Source: Undibacterium hunanense (GTDB lineage: Bacteria > Pseudomonadota > Gammaproteobacteria > Burkholderiales > Burkholderiaceae_D). Taken from it: 64,000 nucleotides of DNA. The stretch is taken from contig NZ_JACOGF010000018.1 in the NCBI RefSeq assembly GCF_014284335.1, forward strand, positions 1-64,000, written 5' to 3'. The position numbers were made by a program, and so were the translations under genes. Of the stretch, positions 10,901 through 17,264 are shown piece after piece. Below the pieces are notes generated by a model, which searched no databases, had not been told where the DNA came from, and saw nothing but the letters and a program-made list of their open reading frames with translations. Position 1 is the first letter of the stretch. Every line of letters begins with the position of its first letter.

Positions 10901-11156
10901 GATAACTCTCCAATGATGGTGTTTTTTCAGGGTTCCTTGCAGTGGCGTTTGCCCTGCTTCCCTGATACACATCATGCTCCGCAAACCCCGGAGCATACAA
11001 TGCTGTGGCAGGGGCAGAAATATCACTGTTGCAAGCTATTTATTCCCAGCCTGGAATAAGCCTTGCCGCGTGTGAAGAAAAACTCACAGCCGCATTATGA
11101 CTTTTGCCGGAAAACCGTGGATACTGCTGATATCGTATTAATTGCAGGGGTATACC

Positions 11157-11891
11157 GTGGTAAAAGTAGCTGTCATCGAAGACGATCTGCCCACCAGCAA
11201 CCAGTTAAAAAGCTGGATAGAGGCAGCCAAACCCGGCATCCACATAGATCAGTGGTTCAGCCGCGACGATGCCGAAGCAGCGATTGCACGCGAGAATTAT
11301 GACCTGGTGGTGCTGGACATAGAACTGGGGCGCGAGCGCCATGCCGGCGTTGCCATCATCAATGCCATCAACAAGCAGCATGCAACGCCTGTGCTGGTTG
11401 TGTCAGCCATGCCGGCCACCATCTACCGCAGCATCATGAAGGCGCTGGACGCCTGGGATTATCTGCAAAAGGCCACCTTTGAAGAAGCCGATTTCATAGA
11501 AACCTTTCTGGAAATCCTGCGCTCGGTCAAAGATCGCAAGCAGCACCTTAGTCAGAATGCTGCCTACAAGGAAGCAGCAAAAACGCCGGTTGCCGACCAG
11601 CTCAGCATGGACCCATTGCGCCAGCGCACACCCATCTGGCGCGGCCAGCGCATCAACCTGCCGCTGACGGCGCAGCGCATACTCGCGGCTCTGTTCGCCC
11701 GCCGTGGCCAGGTGGTGTCGTATGAAGATTTGTATGAAGTCGTCAAGAGCGGACGCAACCGCGACAACATCCGCAAACATGTCTCGACCATACGCGATGC
11801 CTTCCGCGAAATTGATGCAGATTTTGAATGCATAGAAAACGTCCCCATGCGCGGTTTCAGATGGGTGGATGACGACGCAGGCAGGCACTGA
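11157..11891 (+). CDS. OmpR-family response regulator
   Basis: About 244 aa from a GTG at 11157 that follows an AGGGG site; a TTG at 11142 is possible. The N-terminal receiver has the acidic pair EDD, the phosphoacceptor Asp in DLVVLDIEL, Ser in VVSAMP and Lys in YLQKATF. The C-terminal part (about 160-240) is a winged-helix Trans_reg_C-type domain (LTAQRILAALFARRGQVVSYEDLYEVV...DNIRKHVSTIRDAF...GFRWV). The stop is 1 bp before the kinase ATG. It is divergent from the SPFH operon, which it may control. Confidence 0.9.
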   Translation: MVKVAVIEDDLPTSNQLKSWIEAAKPGIHIDQWFSRDDAEAAIARENYDLVVLDIELGRERHAGVAIINAINKQHATPVLVVSAMPATIYRSIMKALDAWDYLQKATFEEADFIETFLEILRSVKDRKQHLSQNAAYKEAAKTPVADQLSMDPLRQRTPIWRGQRINLPLTAQRILAALFARRGQVVSYEDLYEVVKSGRNRDNIRKHVSTIRDAFREIDADFECIENVPMRGFRWVDDDAGRH

Positions 11892-11892
11892 C

Positions 11893-13962
11893 ATGACCAA
11901 GTTCTTGCTGGCGACTTACCGGTTGCGGATATTATTTCGTGGCGTTTTCCTGTTGCTGGCATTGGCGACGGTGGGTCTGGCGCTGTCTGTACTACAGCAG
12001 GAAAAACAACTCAGCTATAACAACTACCAGAGCAACTTCAACAAAACCCGTTTGCAGATTTCAGCAACCCTGCGCCATCCAGCAGGACAACTGGCGTTGT
12101 TGAACCCGCCTGCAGAAAAACAGCGTGCCGCATTGCGGCCCTTGCTGCTGCCGTATTCTGCCATTGATTTTGATGACCAGAACAAGGTACAACAGGCTAT
12201 CGCCATGTCAGGTTGCCTGGTGCAATACGGCAATGATGGCGCGCTGTGCAGCGGTATAGGCAACAACCCCTGGGCTGGTGGTTTCATCTATGTTGCAGGC
12301 AATTTTAATAGCACGCAACTGGTCTCGCATAAGCGCGGTAATGAAAGCCTGACACAGGCGCACAGGCTGAAAGTCAGTGTCAGCCTGCGCGGCCAGACCT
12401 ATCGCTGGATAGCGCCATTTGAAGAAGAAGCCGCACCGGCCAGACAAAACCAGGGCGTGCGTGGACGCTGGACGGGCTTCAACGAAAGCGAAGCAAATAA
12501 ACCGAATGCACGTCCGGTCAGGGATTTCCGTGGCTGGGCCTGGCAACAGGCGATCTGCAATCAGGCCGATCAGGATGACAAGGATGTCAACTGCCAGAAA
12601 AACACCTTCTTCTCATTGCGTCTGCCTATCCCGGTCTTGCAGGAAGCCCTGTTTGAAAAGAAACGCCCCGTCTGGCCGCCACAAGACCTGGACCAGATGG
12701 AAGTCAGCCTGTCCGTATTGCCACCTGACTCTGAAACAGCGCTGCTCGACAGCAAGAATGCGCCAACAGCCACCCCGTTTTCGCTCAAGGATTTGCAGGG
12801 CAATCTCTTGCCTGGCGAAACCCTGCGCATACGCAAGCGCGACGGCCAGGAAAGCAAGTATGACCTGATCAACCTGACCGGTGCATTCGAACAAAGCGAC
12901 GAATCATGGAATATCATCACCCGTCTGATACGCCGCCTGCCGGTGGATGAATACGATATCCCGCTGGAAAGCCGCGAAACCATCAACACCCCACTGGCAA
13001 ATTATGAAGTCTTGCTGAAAGGCGATGTGCGCAGCGTCAGCAAAAGCCTGAGCGTGGTCGCCAGCCGCGTGTCCTGGTTTGTCGGCGCCATGTTGCTGGC
13101 GCTGACGCTGGCCTGGCTGCTGATCGAAATCAGCATCATACGGCGTATCACCCTGCTGACCAAACGTGCCGTGTCACTGTCCAGGACCATGAAGGGTGCG
13201 GGCGAACTGGAACAATTCGATATCAGTGATTTGCGCAGCCCGGATGAACTGGGCGTACTCGCCAGTTGCCTGCATGATTTGCTGCGGCGGGTGAAAGAAG
13301 ATGTGGAACGCGAAACCATACGCACCGAACAGGAAAAAGAAATGTGGCACGCAGTCGGCCATGAAATCATGTCGCCCCTGCAGTCCCTGATGGTCTTGCA
13401 TGGCAGCCCGGATGATCAAAGCAACCGCTACATCAGCCGCATGCAGCAAGCCATACGTGTGCTGTATGGCAGTGCCTCGCCCAGCGAAGCATTTCAATCC
13501 ACCGTCTTGCAGGTCAGTGAAATTGATATCACGTTATTCCTGAAAAACGTGGCCGACAATGCGCCACTGGTGGGCATACCGGACGTAGCCTATCAGGGCA
13601 CGGATGAAGTCGTCATGGTCAAGGCAGATGAATATTCACTGGAAGATGTCGTCACCCACGTCTTGCGCAATGCAGAACGTTATCGCAAGACTGGCAGCGT
13701 CATCAGCATCAAATTGCAAACCAGTGAAACCGCCGTGACGATCGCCATAGACAATGACGGTCCACACATTGCCGACGATCTGATCGATAAAATTTTTGAA
13801 TATGGCGTATCAGACCAACAGGATTCCGCTGCCAACGGCAATCGTGGCCAGGGCCTGTTTGTCGCCAAGACCTATATGGCAAAAATGGGCGGCACCATCA
13901 GCGTGCAAAATGTCGCTGATGGCGTGAGTTTCATACTCAGTCTGCAAAGAGGTAATTGCTGA
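11893..13962 (+). CDS. Sensor histidine kinase with large periplasmic domain
   Basis: 689 aa from the ATG at 11893; a longer in-frame start at 11869 would overlap the regulator. Two membrane helices (about 12-34 and 394-417) bracket a ~360-residue periplasmic domain of unknown fold. A HAMP-like segment follows, then the phosphoacceptor H490 in VGHEIMSPL and an HATPase domain with HVLRNAERY (N593), DNDGPH and GNRGQGLFVAK. The large sensor domain contains four cysteines (about 108, 119, 222 and 234 in this numbering) that could form disulfides. It pairs with the preceding response regulator. Confidence 0.9.
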   Translation: MTKFLLATYRLRILFRGVFLLLALATVGLALSVLQQEKQLSYNNYQSNFNKTRLQISATLRHPAGQLALLNPPAEKQRAALRPLLLPYSAIDFDDQNKVQQAIAMSGCLVQYGNDGALCSGIGNNPWAGGFIYVAGNFNSTQLVSHKRGNESLTQAHRLKVSVSLRGQTYRWIAPFEEEAAPARQNQGVRGRWTGFNESEANKPNARPVRDFRGWAWQQAICNQADQDDKDVNCQKNTFFSLRLPIPVLQEALFEKKRPVWPPQDLDQMEVSLSVLPPDSETALLDSKNAPTATPFSLKDLQGNLLPGETLRIRKRDGQESKYDLINLTGAFEQSDESWNIITRLIRRLPVDEYDIPLESRETINTPLANYEVLLKGDVRSVSKSLSVVASRVSWFVGAMLLALTLAWLLIEISIIRRITLLTKRAVSLSRTMKGAGELEQFDISDLRSPDELGVLASCLHDLLRRVKEDVERETIRTEQEKEMWHAVGHEIMSPLQSLMVLHGSPDDQSNRYISRMQQAIRVLYGSASPSEAFQSTVLQVSEIDITLFLKNVADNAPLVGIPDVAYQGTDEVVMVKADEYSLEDVVTHVLRNAERYRKTGSVISIKLQTSETAVTIAIDNDGPHIADDLIDKIFEYGVSDQQDSAANGNRGQGLFVAKTYMAKMGGTISVQNVADGVSFILSLQRGNC

Positions 13963-14047: not shown

Positions 14048-14437
14048 CTAGGTTTTGATGATGAGCTTCCCGCTCATTCCCTCATGCCCGTCACCGCAAA
14101 AATTGTCGCATAAAAAATCATACTCTCCGGGCTTGTCTGCTTTCAGTTCCACATTGATGACTTTGCCTGGTACCAAATCCCTACGAAGATTAAAATCAGG
14201 CAAGTTGAAACCGTGCGGAAAATCCAGCGCACTCAAGGCCAATACGATGGTTTCCCCCACTCTGACTTCGATACGATTGGGGGTAAATGAAAATTTTTGC
14301 GCCTTGACCGGAATCACGTGTTTTTTAGTATTTCCCTGCGCCACGGCTAGTTGACTCCAGGTCATGGCGGCAGTCGCACTCAATAGTGTTAGCGACATGC
14401 CGGTACAAAAAAGACGTCTTGATGTATTCATCGTCAT
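14048..14437 (-). CDS. CuA-type periplasmic cupredoxin
   Basis: 129 aa with a leader peptide (about 1-34, ending AVA-QG). The mature beta-sandwich carries H75 (DFPHGF) and then C110-x3-C114-x3-H118-x2-M121 in the motif CDNFCGDGHEGM. This is the exact ligand spacing of the binuclear CuA centre of cytochrome oxidase subunit II and N2O reductase, not of a type 1 blue copper site. A soluble electron-transfer or copper-binding role in the periplasm is inferred. Its start overlaps the stop of the metallophosphoesterase gene by 4 bp. It is the last gene of the operon facing the ECF sigma factor. Confidence 0.85.
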   Translation of the reverse strand: MTMNTSRRLFCTGMSLTLLSATAAMTWSQLAVAQGNTKKHVIPVKAQKFSFTPNRIEVRVGETIVLALSALDFPHGFNLPDFNLRRDLVPGKVINVELKADKPGEYDFLCDNFCGDGHEGMSGKLIIKT

Positions 14438-15306
14438 GCCTTTATCACTGGAAATTCAGTCACGCTGGCGATCTTGCCGTCCACATCAACTTCCCGGAAC
14501 CCCAGTCCCTGAAAAGGTGCGTCCGGCTTCCATGGCAAAGGTGTACGCTTGTCTTGTGAACCGGGGGCAGGAAGCGGGAATATCAGGGATTTGGCTGCGT
14601 GATGCGGAATATGGCCAGTCATGTGATGGTGCTCCTGATGAATGTGGCCATAAAACACGGTGACATTGGTATAGGGCATCAACAGGCTGACTGCCTGTGC
14701 ACCGTCACGCGTAGCCCAATCCCATTTGGGTACCAGGTCAAACAGGGGTCTGTGGGTGAATAGCACAATGGGAGCATCTTTTGCCTGTCTGGCCAGATCG
14801 GCCTGTAGCCAGGCCAATTGTTTTTCACCTATGCGGGCTCCCGCATCAGACACATTGTCAAGGGCAATAAAATGCACGCCTTTGTGATCGAAGGAATAGC
14901 TGCTTGCACCAAAATATTCATTGAAGGCAGCGCCGGAATCAAGTGAGGCGTCGTGTTCACCAGGGATGAAACGGATATTCCTGACCTTCAGGCCACCAAT
15001 GATTTCTTTAAATTCTGCCATGCGCCTGCGGCGCTCAACCGGGTCATCTGTCGTATGCGTCAAATCACCGGTAAAAATGATGAAGTCAGGTTGATGCTGC
15101 AAGGCGTTTACGCTTTCTATGGCCTTATGCAAGGTATTTTTCGCTTCCGGGTTGGCATCACCGCTGTAACCCCAATGTGTGTCCGATAATTGCACAAAAT
15201 AAAAGTCGGCCTCTGTGTTCGCCTGCACGGAAGCATGCAGGCCAGACATGAATACTGCACCACCGCCAAGGGCAGCAAGTTTCAAGAAACTTCTACGGTC
15301 TATCAT
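14434..15306 (-). CDS. Tat-exported metallophosphoesterase
   Basis: 290 aa. The N-terminus DRRSFLKLAALGGGAVF is a twin-arginine signal, so the protein is exported folded, probably with metals loaded. Calcineurin-type motifs are seen in order: SDTHWG (D-x-H), TGDLTH (GD), PGEHDA (in place of the usual GNHD), FTHRPL and YGHIHQEHHH (GHxH). The Asn-to-Glu change in GNHD is notable, because that Asn normally helps bridge the metals and bind phosphate. The substrate is unknown. It sits between the cytochrome c and cupredoxin genes and probably belongs to the ECF regulon. Confidence 0.87.
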   Translation of the reverse strand: MIDRRSFLKLAALGGGAVFMSGLHASVQANTEADFYFVQLSDTHWGYSGDANPEAKNTLHKAIESVNALQHQPDFIIFTGDLTHTTDDPVERRRRMAEFKEIIGGLKVRNIRFIPGEHDASLDSGAAFNEYFGASSYSFDHKGVHFIALDNVSDAGARIGEKQLAWLQADLARQAKDAPIVLFTHRPLFDLVPKWDWATRDGAQAVSLLMPYTNVTVFYGHIHQEHHHMTGHIPHHAAKSLIFPLPAPGSQDKRTPLPWKPDAPFQGLGFREVDVDGKIASVTEFPVIKA

Positions 15307-15381
15307 GATATTTCCTTTACTGAAAATGACAGTGCGTCTTGCTCAGGATGAAGACAGAACAGCAATGCCGGAGTGGAGAAA

Positions 15382-15765
15382 TTAACGATCAACTTTCAGG
15401 GTCTTCAGATACGCAATCAGGTGTGCACGCTCGCGGGCAGAAGGAATGGAAATACCCATTTTTTGACCTGGCACCAGTTTTTCGGGATTGCGCAGCCATG
15501 CATCAAGCAGCTTCTCATTCCAGACCAGGTCTGATTTGCTCAGTGCTACCGAATAGATATAGCCGTCAACGCTGCCCGCTTTGCGCCCGACCACACCAAG
15601 GTGCGCCGGGCCAACGCCGTTAAATTGCATAGCATGGCAAGCCGCGCATTTTGCCTGGTAGAGCACCTGCCCGACGGCAGCATCACCTGCTGCCTGTGCC
15701 GCGCGTGCTTCCTGCATCCCGGTAAAACTGACTGCCAGCATCAGTAAATATGTTCGACTATTCAT
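15382..15765 (-). CDS. Class I cytochrome c
   Basis: 127 aa with a signal peptide (to about 23, EARA-AQ). The haem-binding motif C40-A-A-C43-H44 is followed by a GVGPAHLGVVGRKAG segment, and M103 in PGQKMGISIP is the distal ligand. This is the pattern of mitochondrial-type/c552 monohaem cytochromes c (KMG...P). It would carry electrons in the periplasm. It is the first gene after the minus-strand ECF-type promoter at 15808-15837, 75 bp ahead of the metallophosphoesterase gene. Confidence 0.92.
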   Translation of the reverse strand: MNSRTYLLMLAVSFTGMQEARAAQAAGDAAVGQVLYQAKCAACHAMQFNGVGPAHLGVVGRKAGSVDGYIYSVALSKSDLVWNEKLLDAWLRNPEKLVPGQKMGISIPSARERAHLIAYLKTLKVDR

Positions 15766-15807
15766 CTCATAAGCCTTATGCTTGTTGTGACAATTTTCAC
15801 AGAGGCA

Positions 15808-15837
15808 AATACTCGCAAGAGCAGTGATTTATTCCCG
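15808..15837 (-). promoter_or_regulatory. ECF-type promoter of the cytochrome c operon
   Basis: On the minus strand the sequence is CGGGAATAAATC, 11 nt, then GAGTATT. The plus-strand promoter of the sigma factor gene has the identical first block, the same 11-nt spacer and GAGTCTT. The second block ends about 43 bp before the cytochrome c ATG. The -35/-10 assignment is inferred from this match and from the GGAAT/GTC-like character of ECF promoters. Confidence 0.65.
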
Positions 15838-15876
15838 GAATTTAAAATCTTTTTTCCGGAATTTTATTTTTTTGAG

Positions 15877-15906
15877 CGGGAATAAATCTGACTGATATTG
15901 AGTCTT
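15877..15906 (+). promoter_or_regulatory. ECF-type autoregulatory promoter of the sigma factor gene
   Basis: CGGGAATAAATC (15877-15888), an 11-nt spacer and GAGTCTT (15900-15906) mirror the promoter of the divergent operon. The ATG at 15926 with its AAGGA site lies just downstream, giving a short leader. Autoregulation by the encoded ECF factor is inferred. Confidence 0.65.
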
Positions 15907-15925
15907 CATAGCAAGGATCAATAAA

Positions 15926-16501
15926 ATGGGTGTTTTTTTGAGAGAAGACCGTGCCGCCAAAGAATTTGAAACCCTGGTCCTGGCCCATCTGGACACGGCA
16001 TACAATCTGGCGCGCTGGCTGACGCGCAATGACCATGATGCGGAGGATCTGGTGCAGAATGCCTATCTGCGGGCTTTCCGTTTCCGCGACAGTTATCGCG
16101 GGGGCGATATCCGGGTCTGGCTCATGACCATCGTCCGCAATACCTATTACACCAGTTTGCGCGACGGCAAAGCGATGAGCGCAGACATTGGTTTTGATGA
16201 AGACCTGCATGGCGATGCTGAAGCCGCCAATGATGATTCGGCCTATGCCTTCAACAAAGACCCTGCGCATGCATTGGAAGATCGCGACCAGCGCAATATG
16301 GTCAACCGTGCCTTGGAAAAACTGCCGCAAGTATTCAAGGAAGTGCTGGTATTGAAAGAGATGGATGATTTTTCCTATAAAGAAATCGCCGATGTCACTG
16401 GCATCCCCATAGGAACAGTCATGTCAAGGCTGGCAAGGGCCAGGAAGTTATTGCTGGGATTGTTAAGAACTGAACAGCAGGGAGACGGACATGGAATGTA
16501 A
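15926..16501 (+). CDS. ECF-family RNA polymerase sigma factor (RpoE-like)
   Basis: 191 aa. Sigma region 2 (about 15-80: ARWLTRNDHDAEDLVQNAYLR, then RVWLMTIVRNTYY) and region 4 (about 130-180: LEKLPQVFKEVLVLKEMDDFSYKEIADV, PIGTVMSRLARARK) are clear, with an acidic linker between them. It directs RNA polymerase to a small set of promoters once released by its anti-sigma factor. The stop overlaps the anti-sigma start by 11 bp, so they are coupled. Matching promoters on both sides of the gap suggest it drives itself and the cytochrome c/phosphoesterase/cupredoxin operon. Confidence 0.95.
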   Translation: MGVFLREDRAAKEFETLVLAHLDTAYNLARWLTRNDHDAEDLVQNAYLRAFRFRDSYRGGDIRVWLMTIVRNTYYTSLRDGKAMSADIGFDEDLHGDAEAANDDSAYAFNKDPAHALEDRDQRNMVNRALEKLPQVFKEVLVLKEMDDFSYKEIADVTGIPIGTVMSRLARARKLLLGLLRTEQQGDGHGM

Positions 16502-17264
16502 TCAGGTCAGGCAGTTGATGTCTGCTTATATCGATCAGGAACTGGACACCGGACAGGCGCTTCGCATGGGCGAACATCTGGCGCACTGTGAAGCATGTCG
16601 CACCGCACTGATGCAGGCAGAAGAACTGACAGCAAGTGTCAGGCAGCATGCCACCTACCATCTCGCCCCTGCAAAGCTGCGCGCACGCATCGTGGCTGAT
16701 CTGGTGCAAGAGCGTCCTTCCCGCTTCAGTAGCTGGCCCTGGGCCTGGATTAACCTTGGTTTAAGTGGCTTGAGCACAGCAGCATTTGCCGTCACTCTCA
16801 CACTGTATTTGAACCAGCCATCGGCCACGCAAATTTTTAATGATGAAGTGCTTGCCAGCCATTTCCGTTCACTGGCGCCGGGGCATCTGGTTGATGTCGT
16901 CTCCTCTGACCATCATACGGTCAAGCCCTGGTATGCGGGCAAGCTTGATTTTTCACCTCCCGTGGTCGACCTGACAGCTCAGGGCTATCCCTTGCTGGGA
17001 GGCCGGCTGGATTATCTGGCAGGCAGACAGGTCGCAGCCCTCGCTTACCAGCACGGCAAGCATATTGTGAACCTGTACCTCTATCCCGATACCACCAATG
17101 CGTCCAATACCGGCAAAGCAGCAGTGAGCTTCACAACAGGTTCCAGCCGTGGTTACCAGCTCATGCAATGGAGTGCGGCTGGCGTGCATTATGTTGCGGT
17201 GTCTGACATGAATGGCGCAGAAATGGCTCAGTTCGCCCATCAAATCAAGGCATCCGTCGATTAG
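16491..17264 (+). CDS. Zinc-finger anti-sigma factor
   Basis: 257 aa. The N-terminal ZAS domain has H29-x3-C33-x2-C36 (EHLAHCEACR) plus C3 as a likely further zinc ligand. A single membrane helix (about 80-104, AWINLGLSGLSTAAFAVTLTLYL) separates it from a ~150-aa periplasmic domain (ending QFAHQIKASVD) of unfamiliar type. It should hold the ECF factor at the membrane until a periplasmic or redox signal arrives. The H-x3-C-x2-C zinc site can respond to oxidants in relatives such as RsrA and ChrR, while the periplasmic domain points to an envelope signal instead. Confidence 0.92.
   Translation: MECNQVRQLMSAYIDQELDTGQALRMGEHLAHCEACRTALMQAEELTASVRQHATYHLAPAKLRARIVADLVQERPSRFSSWPWAWINLGLSGLSTAAFAVTLTLYLNQPSATQIFNDEVLASHFRSLAPGHLVDVVSSDHHTVKPWYAGKLDFSPPVVDLTAQGYPLLGGRLDYLAGRQVAALAYQHGKHIVNLYLYPDTTNASNTGKAAVSFTTGSSRGYQLMQWSAAGVHYVAVSDMNGAEMAQFAHQIKASVD

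Follow-up and report, generated by a model that had tools for sequence, protein, structure and literature searches.

Within the 64,000-nucleotide stretch of Undibacterium hunanense DNA analysed here (contig NZ_JACOGF010000018.1, positions 1 to 64,000; hereafter the window), five genes form two divergent operons that, with the chances in our judgement evenly balanced, would constitute a self-regulated periplasmic redox module, with electron transfer and with a metallophosphoesterase (MPE) as its catalytic centre. One operon encodes a sigma factor of the extracytoplasmic function (ECF) type and its anti-sigma factor, the other a cytochrome c, the MPE and a cupredoxin (Table 1). The open reading frames lie where a preliminary description of the window, made from its letters alone, had placed them, and the divergent gap of 160 bp that it reported spans 15766-15925; the MPE and cupredoxin genes overlap by 4 bases, and the sigma and anti-sigma genes likewise overlap. 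What distinguishes the MPE is its motif III, GEHD, with a glutamate in the place of a metal-ligand asparagine, a metal-site change that is a new observation here and, as the alignments indicate, belongs to a clade fixed for glutamate.

The extent of this clade was traced through relatives collected with the MPE as bait, one genome per species, of which 80 of 105 were taken in. Across the resulting 81 MPE rows (the window and 80 relatives), the metal-ligand positions D42, H44, D81, H185, H221 and H223 are invariant and Glu117 of motif III is present in every row; GEHD lay outside the search peptides used. With the window again included, the glutamate is found in 28 of 28 matches across the order (Burkholderiales) and in all 17 representatives of five branches, the most distant of which are about 30% identical to the window protein. 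Glu117 aligns with N97 of Rv0805, where the entry Rv0805N97A reads GAHD, and of the eleven other MPE-family matches of the host genome the ten that are readable all have GN. Another stretch, HQEHHHM, invariant in the first 81 rows, was discarded as a hallmark: it contains a search peptide, and order-wide it is represented by NHHM, HHQK, HHFR and others. The protein carries the twin-arginine signal of Tat-exported (twin-arginine translocation) proteins, with TIGR01409 above its cut-off (Table 1) and PF10518 below it (18.4 against 22.7 bits); 78 of the 80 homologues show either RR or KR at this motif.

The MPE departs from two known families. Class III cyclic nucleotide phosphodiesterases (CpdA, Rv0805, GpdQ) have GNH(D/E) as motif III instead of GEHD, and the match to NF008359 reaches 43.7 bits against a curated cut-off of 225; for SoxB, the model TIGR04486 is not among the six models that the MPE matches at 0.01. 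The PHROG library gave one weak match for the MPE, to a PHROG of unknown function (2e-6), and none for the cupredoxin, while three PADLOC models matched the MPE weakly (6e-6 to 6e-5) and none the sigma and anti-sigma factors.

Electron carriers recur beside GEHD MPEs from branch to branch. In the core branch, which includes the window, the partner is a CuA-like cupredoxin. In a second branch, comprising Burkholderia, Caballeronia, Gemmatirosa and three further genomes, it is a plastocyanin-type cupredoxin directly 3' of the MPE gene (7 of 8 loci), and at three loci of this branch (L129, L130, L131) an ECF sigma and an anti-sigma factor are present too. A cupredoxin is annotated just upstream of the MPE in Streptomyces and Mycobacteroides, the Mycobacteroides locus additionally encoding a sigma factor, a Rieske protein and a sulfite-oxidase-type protein. 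In the fourth branch, the MPEs of Phyllobacterium and of G638 stand beside a cytochrome of the SoxA/TsdA type and subunits of a cbb3-like oxidase, together with a further protein in which a cupredoxin-like CxxH...M stretch can be made out by eye and Pfam finds a carboxypeptidase-regulatory part only; in Sinorhizobium meliloti, SoxYZ and a flavoprotein are nearby. In the fifth branch (G611), the neighbours are a SoxA/TsdA-type cytochrome and a pair of proteins resembling cytochrome c peroxidases. Two observations on such loci are recorded for their own sake. A DUF6529-type membrane protein, encoded close to MPE and cupredoxin, is common to a Streptomyces plasmid locus (L121, 7996-8505) and to three core loci of Collimonas (L042, L044, L045), at about 40% identity. 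In rhizobia (L187, 8001-12888, and L180), the MPE belongs to an operon-like run that also encodes a cytochrome of the SoxA/TsdA type and cbb3-like oxidase subunits, including a fusion of FixO with a cytochrome c.

The 80 core loci, which span 3.8 to 12.9 kb each, were inspected for the remaining module genes. As the MPE was the bait, the counts refer to its partners: a downstream cupredoxin accompanies it in 79 of 80 loci, and sigma and anti-sigma factor are both present in 70, where the sigma gene points away from the operon 58 times and is co-directional 12 times; at one locus (L055) they flank the MPE on opposite sides. A cytochrome homologue is found in 13 loci, and three others have another small CxxCH protein nearby (L115, L116, L118), that of L116 falling below the Pfam cut-offs; one more match (L079) is doubtful. 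Barring the core genes and mixed antisense clusters, no further gene cluster, as delimited by a crude open-reading-frame caller, occurs in more than 10 of the 80 loci. The co-occurrence of five genes that the preliminary description proposed to search for thus holds for a conserved core of sigma factor, anti-sigma factor, MPE and cupredoxin; the cytochrome is accessory. The cluster occurs in many bacteria of soils and waters. The closest named relative of the MPE, at 85% identity, comes from Undibacterium sp. TS12, and the record titles of the 80 relatives name beta-, gamma- and alphaproteobacteria as well as metagenome-assembled genomes labelled Nitrospirae, Deltaproteobacteria, Acidobacteria and Melainabacteria/Obscuribacterales. 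Within the genus the distribution is patchy, the MPE being present in 3 of 43 genomes.

A survey of 399 genomes of the order, independent of the MPE bait, gave the same association. At thresholds of 1e-10 for the anti-sigma factor and 1e-30 for the MPE, the former was found in 31 genomes, the latter in 28 and both in 26, where about 2 would be expected (hypergeometric 1.4e-33, uncorrected for kinship); five genomes had the anti-sigma factor without an MPE match and two the reverse. The pairs lie at most 2 kb apart in 24 of the 26 genomes, those of G288 and G318 being on different contigs. A Janthinobacterium lividum plasmid (L174, NZ_CP139977.1, 3251-5570) carries a decayed module that retains the sigma gene, a cytochrome cut short and a cupredoxin minus one Cys ligand, and in which MPE and anti-sigma factor were not found. 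At three loci (L057, 5090-5398; L059; L064), a small protein encoded 3' of the cupredoxin, HiPIP-like by eye, starts much as twin-arginine signals do and is rich in Cys towards its end.

How the module might be regulated is indicated by the divergent gap. The pattern CGGGAATAAATC-N11-GAGTMTT has exactly two matches in the window, one before each operon and each in the proper orientation, as the preliminary description had stated, and none in 100 shuffles. The genome scan that it proposed covered all 6.28 Mb of the host genome and found the two gap sites to be the sole exact copies; allowing up to 3 mismatches added one site, and a reversed-pattern control had none. A relaxed promoter pattern likewise gave one additional site, which lies within a reading frame and was taken as chance and not as a third promoter. 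Since the exact motif is absent elsewhere and the relaxed scans each add a single site, the predicted regulon consists essentially of these two operons. A looser form, GGAATA-N14-16, precedes the sigma gene in 52 of 70 relatives and the operon in 45 of 80, where shuffled regions average 0.1 and 0.14; its background is 97 of 7256 tiles of 240 bases (all loci, both strands, promoter sites included). Aligning 95 sites yields the promoter GGAATA-N15-(C/G)(G/A)GTNT. In three genomes (G288, G318, G193), the motif stands upstream of an MPE with a plastocyanin-type cupredoxin, with no sigma match within 10 kb around, and in G288 a separate sigma locus also has the motif upstream. The proposed tie of the sigma factor to its own and to the facing operon is in keeping with this retention of matching predicted promoters across relatives, from which we infer that it binds both sites.

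The predicted sites agree with the cross-species consensus of ECF26 sigma factors, given in PMC6180224 as GGAATA for the -35 and GT for the -10 element. There, too, the S. meliloti promoter before SMc01418-rpoE1 contains the identical 12-mer CGGGAATAAATC at equal spacing, its -10 part reading GTGTCTT as against GAGTCTT in the window (PMC6180224). The anti-sigma factor has the architecture of its ECF26 counterparts, namely an N-terminal zf-HC2 domain, one membrane helix (residues 82-107 in the AlphaFold model; pLDDT 89, alignment of 52 rows) and a periplasmic C-terminal domain. By promoter type and anti-sigma architecture we call the sigma factor ECF26-like; a word search of PMC7406223 and PMC8103513 for ECF26 found no mention of it. 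In 69 anti-sigma rows (the window and 68 relatives, two short relatives being left out), the periplasmic domain is devoid of Cys throughout, which rules out thiol-based sensing by this protein, while H142, K145, W147 and H191 are present in every row; the zinc-finger columns are missing in 10. The fold of the domain weakly resembles RseB/MucB (best E 0.0057, low TM). How ECF26 systems sense their signal or become activated is not settled in PMC6527743 or PMC6180224, and for this question the invariant, Cys-free domain offers concrete residues.

The cupredoxin, which has a signal of the RR type (TSRRLF), shares its ligand spacing and the COX2 domain match with the CuA domains of cytochrome c oxidase and N2O reductase; its nearest solved relatives are CuA domains. 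In the window protein the ligands are C110-x3-C114-x3-H118-x2-M121, as the preliminary description had noted, with H75 as the first His. Throughout the 80 cupredoxin rows (the window and 79 relatives), the four residues of the loop are kept in 78, the other two being gaps, whereas the first ligand, His in 46, is exchanged for Met in the remaining 34 (e.g., L074, L102, L110) and the full set of five is present in 45. Because of this Met, the CuA reading suits the window protein but not the entire family; unlike the CuA domains of those enzymes, moreover, the cupredoxin is free-standing and soluble.

Which known system does the module resemble most? Cupredoxins and c cytochromes carry electrons, and the Tat system exports folded metalloproteins. 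The closest parallel in layout is the RpoE4/EcfR4 system of S. meliloti with sorT-sorU-azu2, which likewise has an ECF26-type promoter, an anti-sigma gene downstream of the sigma gene, and a small adjoining regulon that combines a periplasmic enzyme with a cytochrome c and a cupredoxin (PMC3511301, PMC6180224). Under the control of RpoE4 are sorT, a cytochrome c gene and azu2, which encodes a pseudoazurin, and both RpoE1 and RpoE4 respond to sulfite-generating compounds (PMC3511301); sulfite is named as the trigger in two species, with the sensing step called unknown (PMC6527743). The enzyme there is a molybdenum sulfite dehydrogenase, however, and the cupredoxin is of the pseudoazurin type, as opposed to a GEHD metallophosphoesterase and a CuA-like protein here. 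No Oxidored_molyb protein is encoded among the five module genes, the three PF00174 genes of the genome lying elsewhere (C54:377336, C19:67025, C13:79649). In PMC6527743, the ECF26 consensus is reported as not found upstream of betaproteobacterial sulfite-oxidase genes.

Release from the anti-sigma factor is what frees ECF sigma factors. In the module as we picture it, an outside signal would act on the anti-sigma factor at its periplasmic domain, which is free of Cys, and so release the ECF26-type sigma factor, which would transcribe its own and the facing operon from the two matching promoters and, judging by the motif, little else. The enzyme produced would have the metallophosphoesterase fold and a two-metal site in which Glu stands for a metal-ligand Asn. 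Exported by the Tat system, it may act on a periplasmic substrate, with the CuA-like cupredoxin as its electron acceptor and the cytochrome c as another in some lineages. More broadly, and as a tentative proposal that is possible but by no means probable, the GEHD metallophosphoesterases may form a new class of periplasmic two-metal oxidoreductases, in which the change from Asn to Glu made a diesterase site redox-active and which in several phyla supply cupredoxins, c cytochromes or a dedicated oxidase with electrons, whose source could be sulfur oxyanions.

It is also conceivable, if somewhat unlikely, that the MPE is an ordinary hydrolase, be it a phosphodiesterase or a SoxB-like enzyme acting on a thiosulfonate, while cupredoxin and cytochrome serve another enzyme and the sigma factor co-regulates a stress set. 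SoxB has the metallophosphoesterase fold, is periplasmic and works with c cytochromes, and distant MPE relatives adjoin SoxA/TsdA-type cytochromes or, in S. meliloti, SoxYZ; yet SoxB has about 570 residues against 290 for the MPE, which does not match the SoxB model. The AlphaFold model of the MPE (mean pLDDT 80, 81 rows) is nearest to GpdQ and Rv0805, class III cyclic nucleotide or glycerophospho-diesterases with which it shares the fold and most metal-ligand positions, and the intact state of these positions, together with His118 in 80 of 81 rows, counts in favour of hydrolysis. From these diesterases the MPE differs in having GEHD instead of GNHD, in being exported, in its electron-carrier neighbours and in staying below the cut-offs of the related NCBIfam models. 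Against a plain hydrolase stand the fixation of GEHD, the pairing of MPE and cupredoxin, which is the most constant part of the locus and outlasts the switch of cupredoxin type, and the absence, by the crude open-reading-frame caller, of any further gene cluster from all but at most 10 of the 80 core loci. A response to oxidant damage by hypochlorite or peroxide, in which the carriers feed a repair or detoxifying activity, has a precedent in EcfF-OsrA of Bradyrhizobium japonicum, which switches on methionine sulfoxide reductases in response to H2O2 (PMC3420878), and the peroxidase-like proteins of G611 would fit it. But EcfF belongs to group 16 and is held by a different, multi-helix anti-sigma factor that needs Cys179 (PMC3420878), whereas the periplasmic domain of the window type lacks Cys in all 69 rows, and we consider this explanation decidedly unlikely. 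Very improbable is a role in copper or heme-copper handling, with the cupredoxin storing or delivering copper and the MPE serving maturation: rhizobial MPE relatives do have SCO, a cbb3-like oxidase and a P-type ATPase in their vicinity, but in the 80 core loci SCO, hemA and cbb3 subunits have no match at 1e-6 and a P-type ATPase matches in two, and the promoter is of the ECF26 type. Of the roles envisaged in the preliminary description, copper stress finds no specific support and the cytochrome drops out of the conserved core; autoregulation, control of the facing operon and the theme of periplasmic electron transfer agree with the sequence data.

Several observations weigh against the redox module itself. 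A GEHD MPE of B. vietnamiensis (L120) has no adjoining cupredoxin that could be found, and the listed neighbours of another, of the fifth branch and on a Methylocystis plasmid, include no cupredoxin or electron-carrier gene. Within the core, 67 of 80 loci are without a cytochrome homologue, the loose promoter motif was not found in 18 of 70 sigma and 35 of 80 operon upstream regions, and the Met at the first CuA position affects a large part of the cupredoxins. As to the signal, added sulfite itself failed to induce the S. meliloti reporters, and two other ECF26 genes of that organism were, in preliminary experiments, unresponsive to sulfite sources (PMC3511301). The genomic link to sulfur is similarly thin, since a search at 1e-6 found SoxY, Z, A, B and C in none of the 80 core loci; the same holds for the Phyllobacterium SoxA/TsdA-type cytochrome and the G611 peroxidase. 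SoxB exceeds its cut-off in 185 of the 399 genomes, in 18 of 28 with the MPE against 167 of 371 others (p=0.038, one-sided, uncorrected for kinship), and in the genus it is present in 3 of 3 MPE genomes against 11 of 40 others, with large genomes going along with both; this weak association is suggestive only. In favour of the module, the host genome has a sox cluster with a true SoxB apart from the MPE, its other sox genes being named by eye. A sulfur oxyanion is still our leading guess for signal or substrate, because the layout copies that of RpoE4 and sorT-sorU-azu2, but as no sox gene matched in the core loci, our estimate had to be lowered and the guess is rather doubtful.

Table 1. Module genes, predicted promoters and motif codons in the window
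Feature	Position	Strand	Remarks
Cupredoxin	14048..14437	-	Last operon gene; PF13473 54.3 bits and PF00116 (COX2) 34.6 bits, both above cut-off
CDNFCGDGHEGM codons, CuA-type loop of cupredoxin	14075..14110	-	Sequence; C/C/H/M in 78/80 rows, 2 gaps
Metallophosphoesterase (MPE), Tat-type	14434..15306	-	PF00149 50 bits; TIGR01409 20.0 bits (cut-off 16.7)
GEHD codons, MPE motif III	14950..14961	-	Glu117 replaces metal-ligand Asn
Cytochrome c	15382..15765	-	First gene of operon; PF00034 36.2 bits; accessory, 13/80 relatives
ECF26-type promoter (predicted), cytochrome-MPE-cupredoxin operon	15808..15837	-	
ECF26-type promoter (predicted), sigma/anti-sigma operon	15877..15906	+	
ECF sigma factor (ECF26-like)	15926..16501	+	PF04542 and PF08281 (Sigma70 r2, r4) above cut-off; promoter type
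Anti-sigma factor	16491..17264	+	zf-HC2 PF13490 45.8 bits; one membrane helix ~82-107; Cys-free periplasmic domain

By Pfam and NCBIfam, the genes adjacent to the module are a two-component system and an S9 peptidase. The former, a response regulator and histidine kinase pair at 11142-13962, is convergent with the cupredoxin gene and ends beside it, and bears no sign of membership in the module. That no oxidase lies nearby, as had been stated, is true of these adjacent genes, to which the check was confined.

What, then, does the module add to the biology of its components? The regulator is of a known kind, and the gene combination is a new variant; a search of the open-access literature in one library found no paper joining these module genes. 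The ECF26-type promoter and the GEHD change, both of which had escaped the preliminary description, make the phosphoesterase the most interesting part of the locus. The metallophosphoesterase fold is known for hydrolysis, and if the MPE were redox-active, the enzyme would be categorically new. With its fixed metal-ligand change and recurrent electron carriers, and with one branch under a sigma family known from responses to sulfite, the clade would provide a directly testable case of a hydrolase fold turned redox. It would also give the ECF26 sigma factors a new target set and assign a definable partner to a CuA-like protein that is free-standing.

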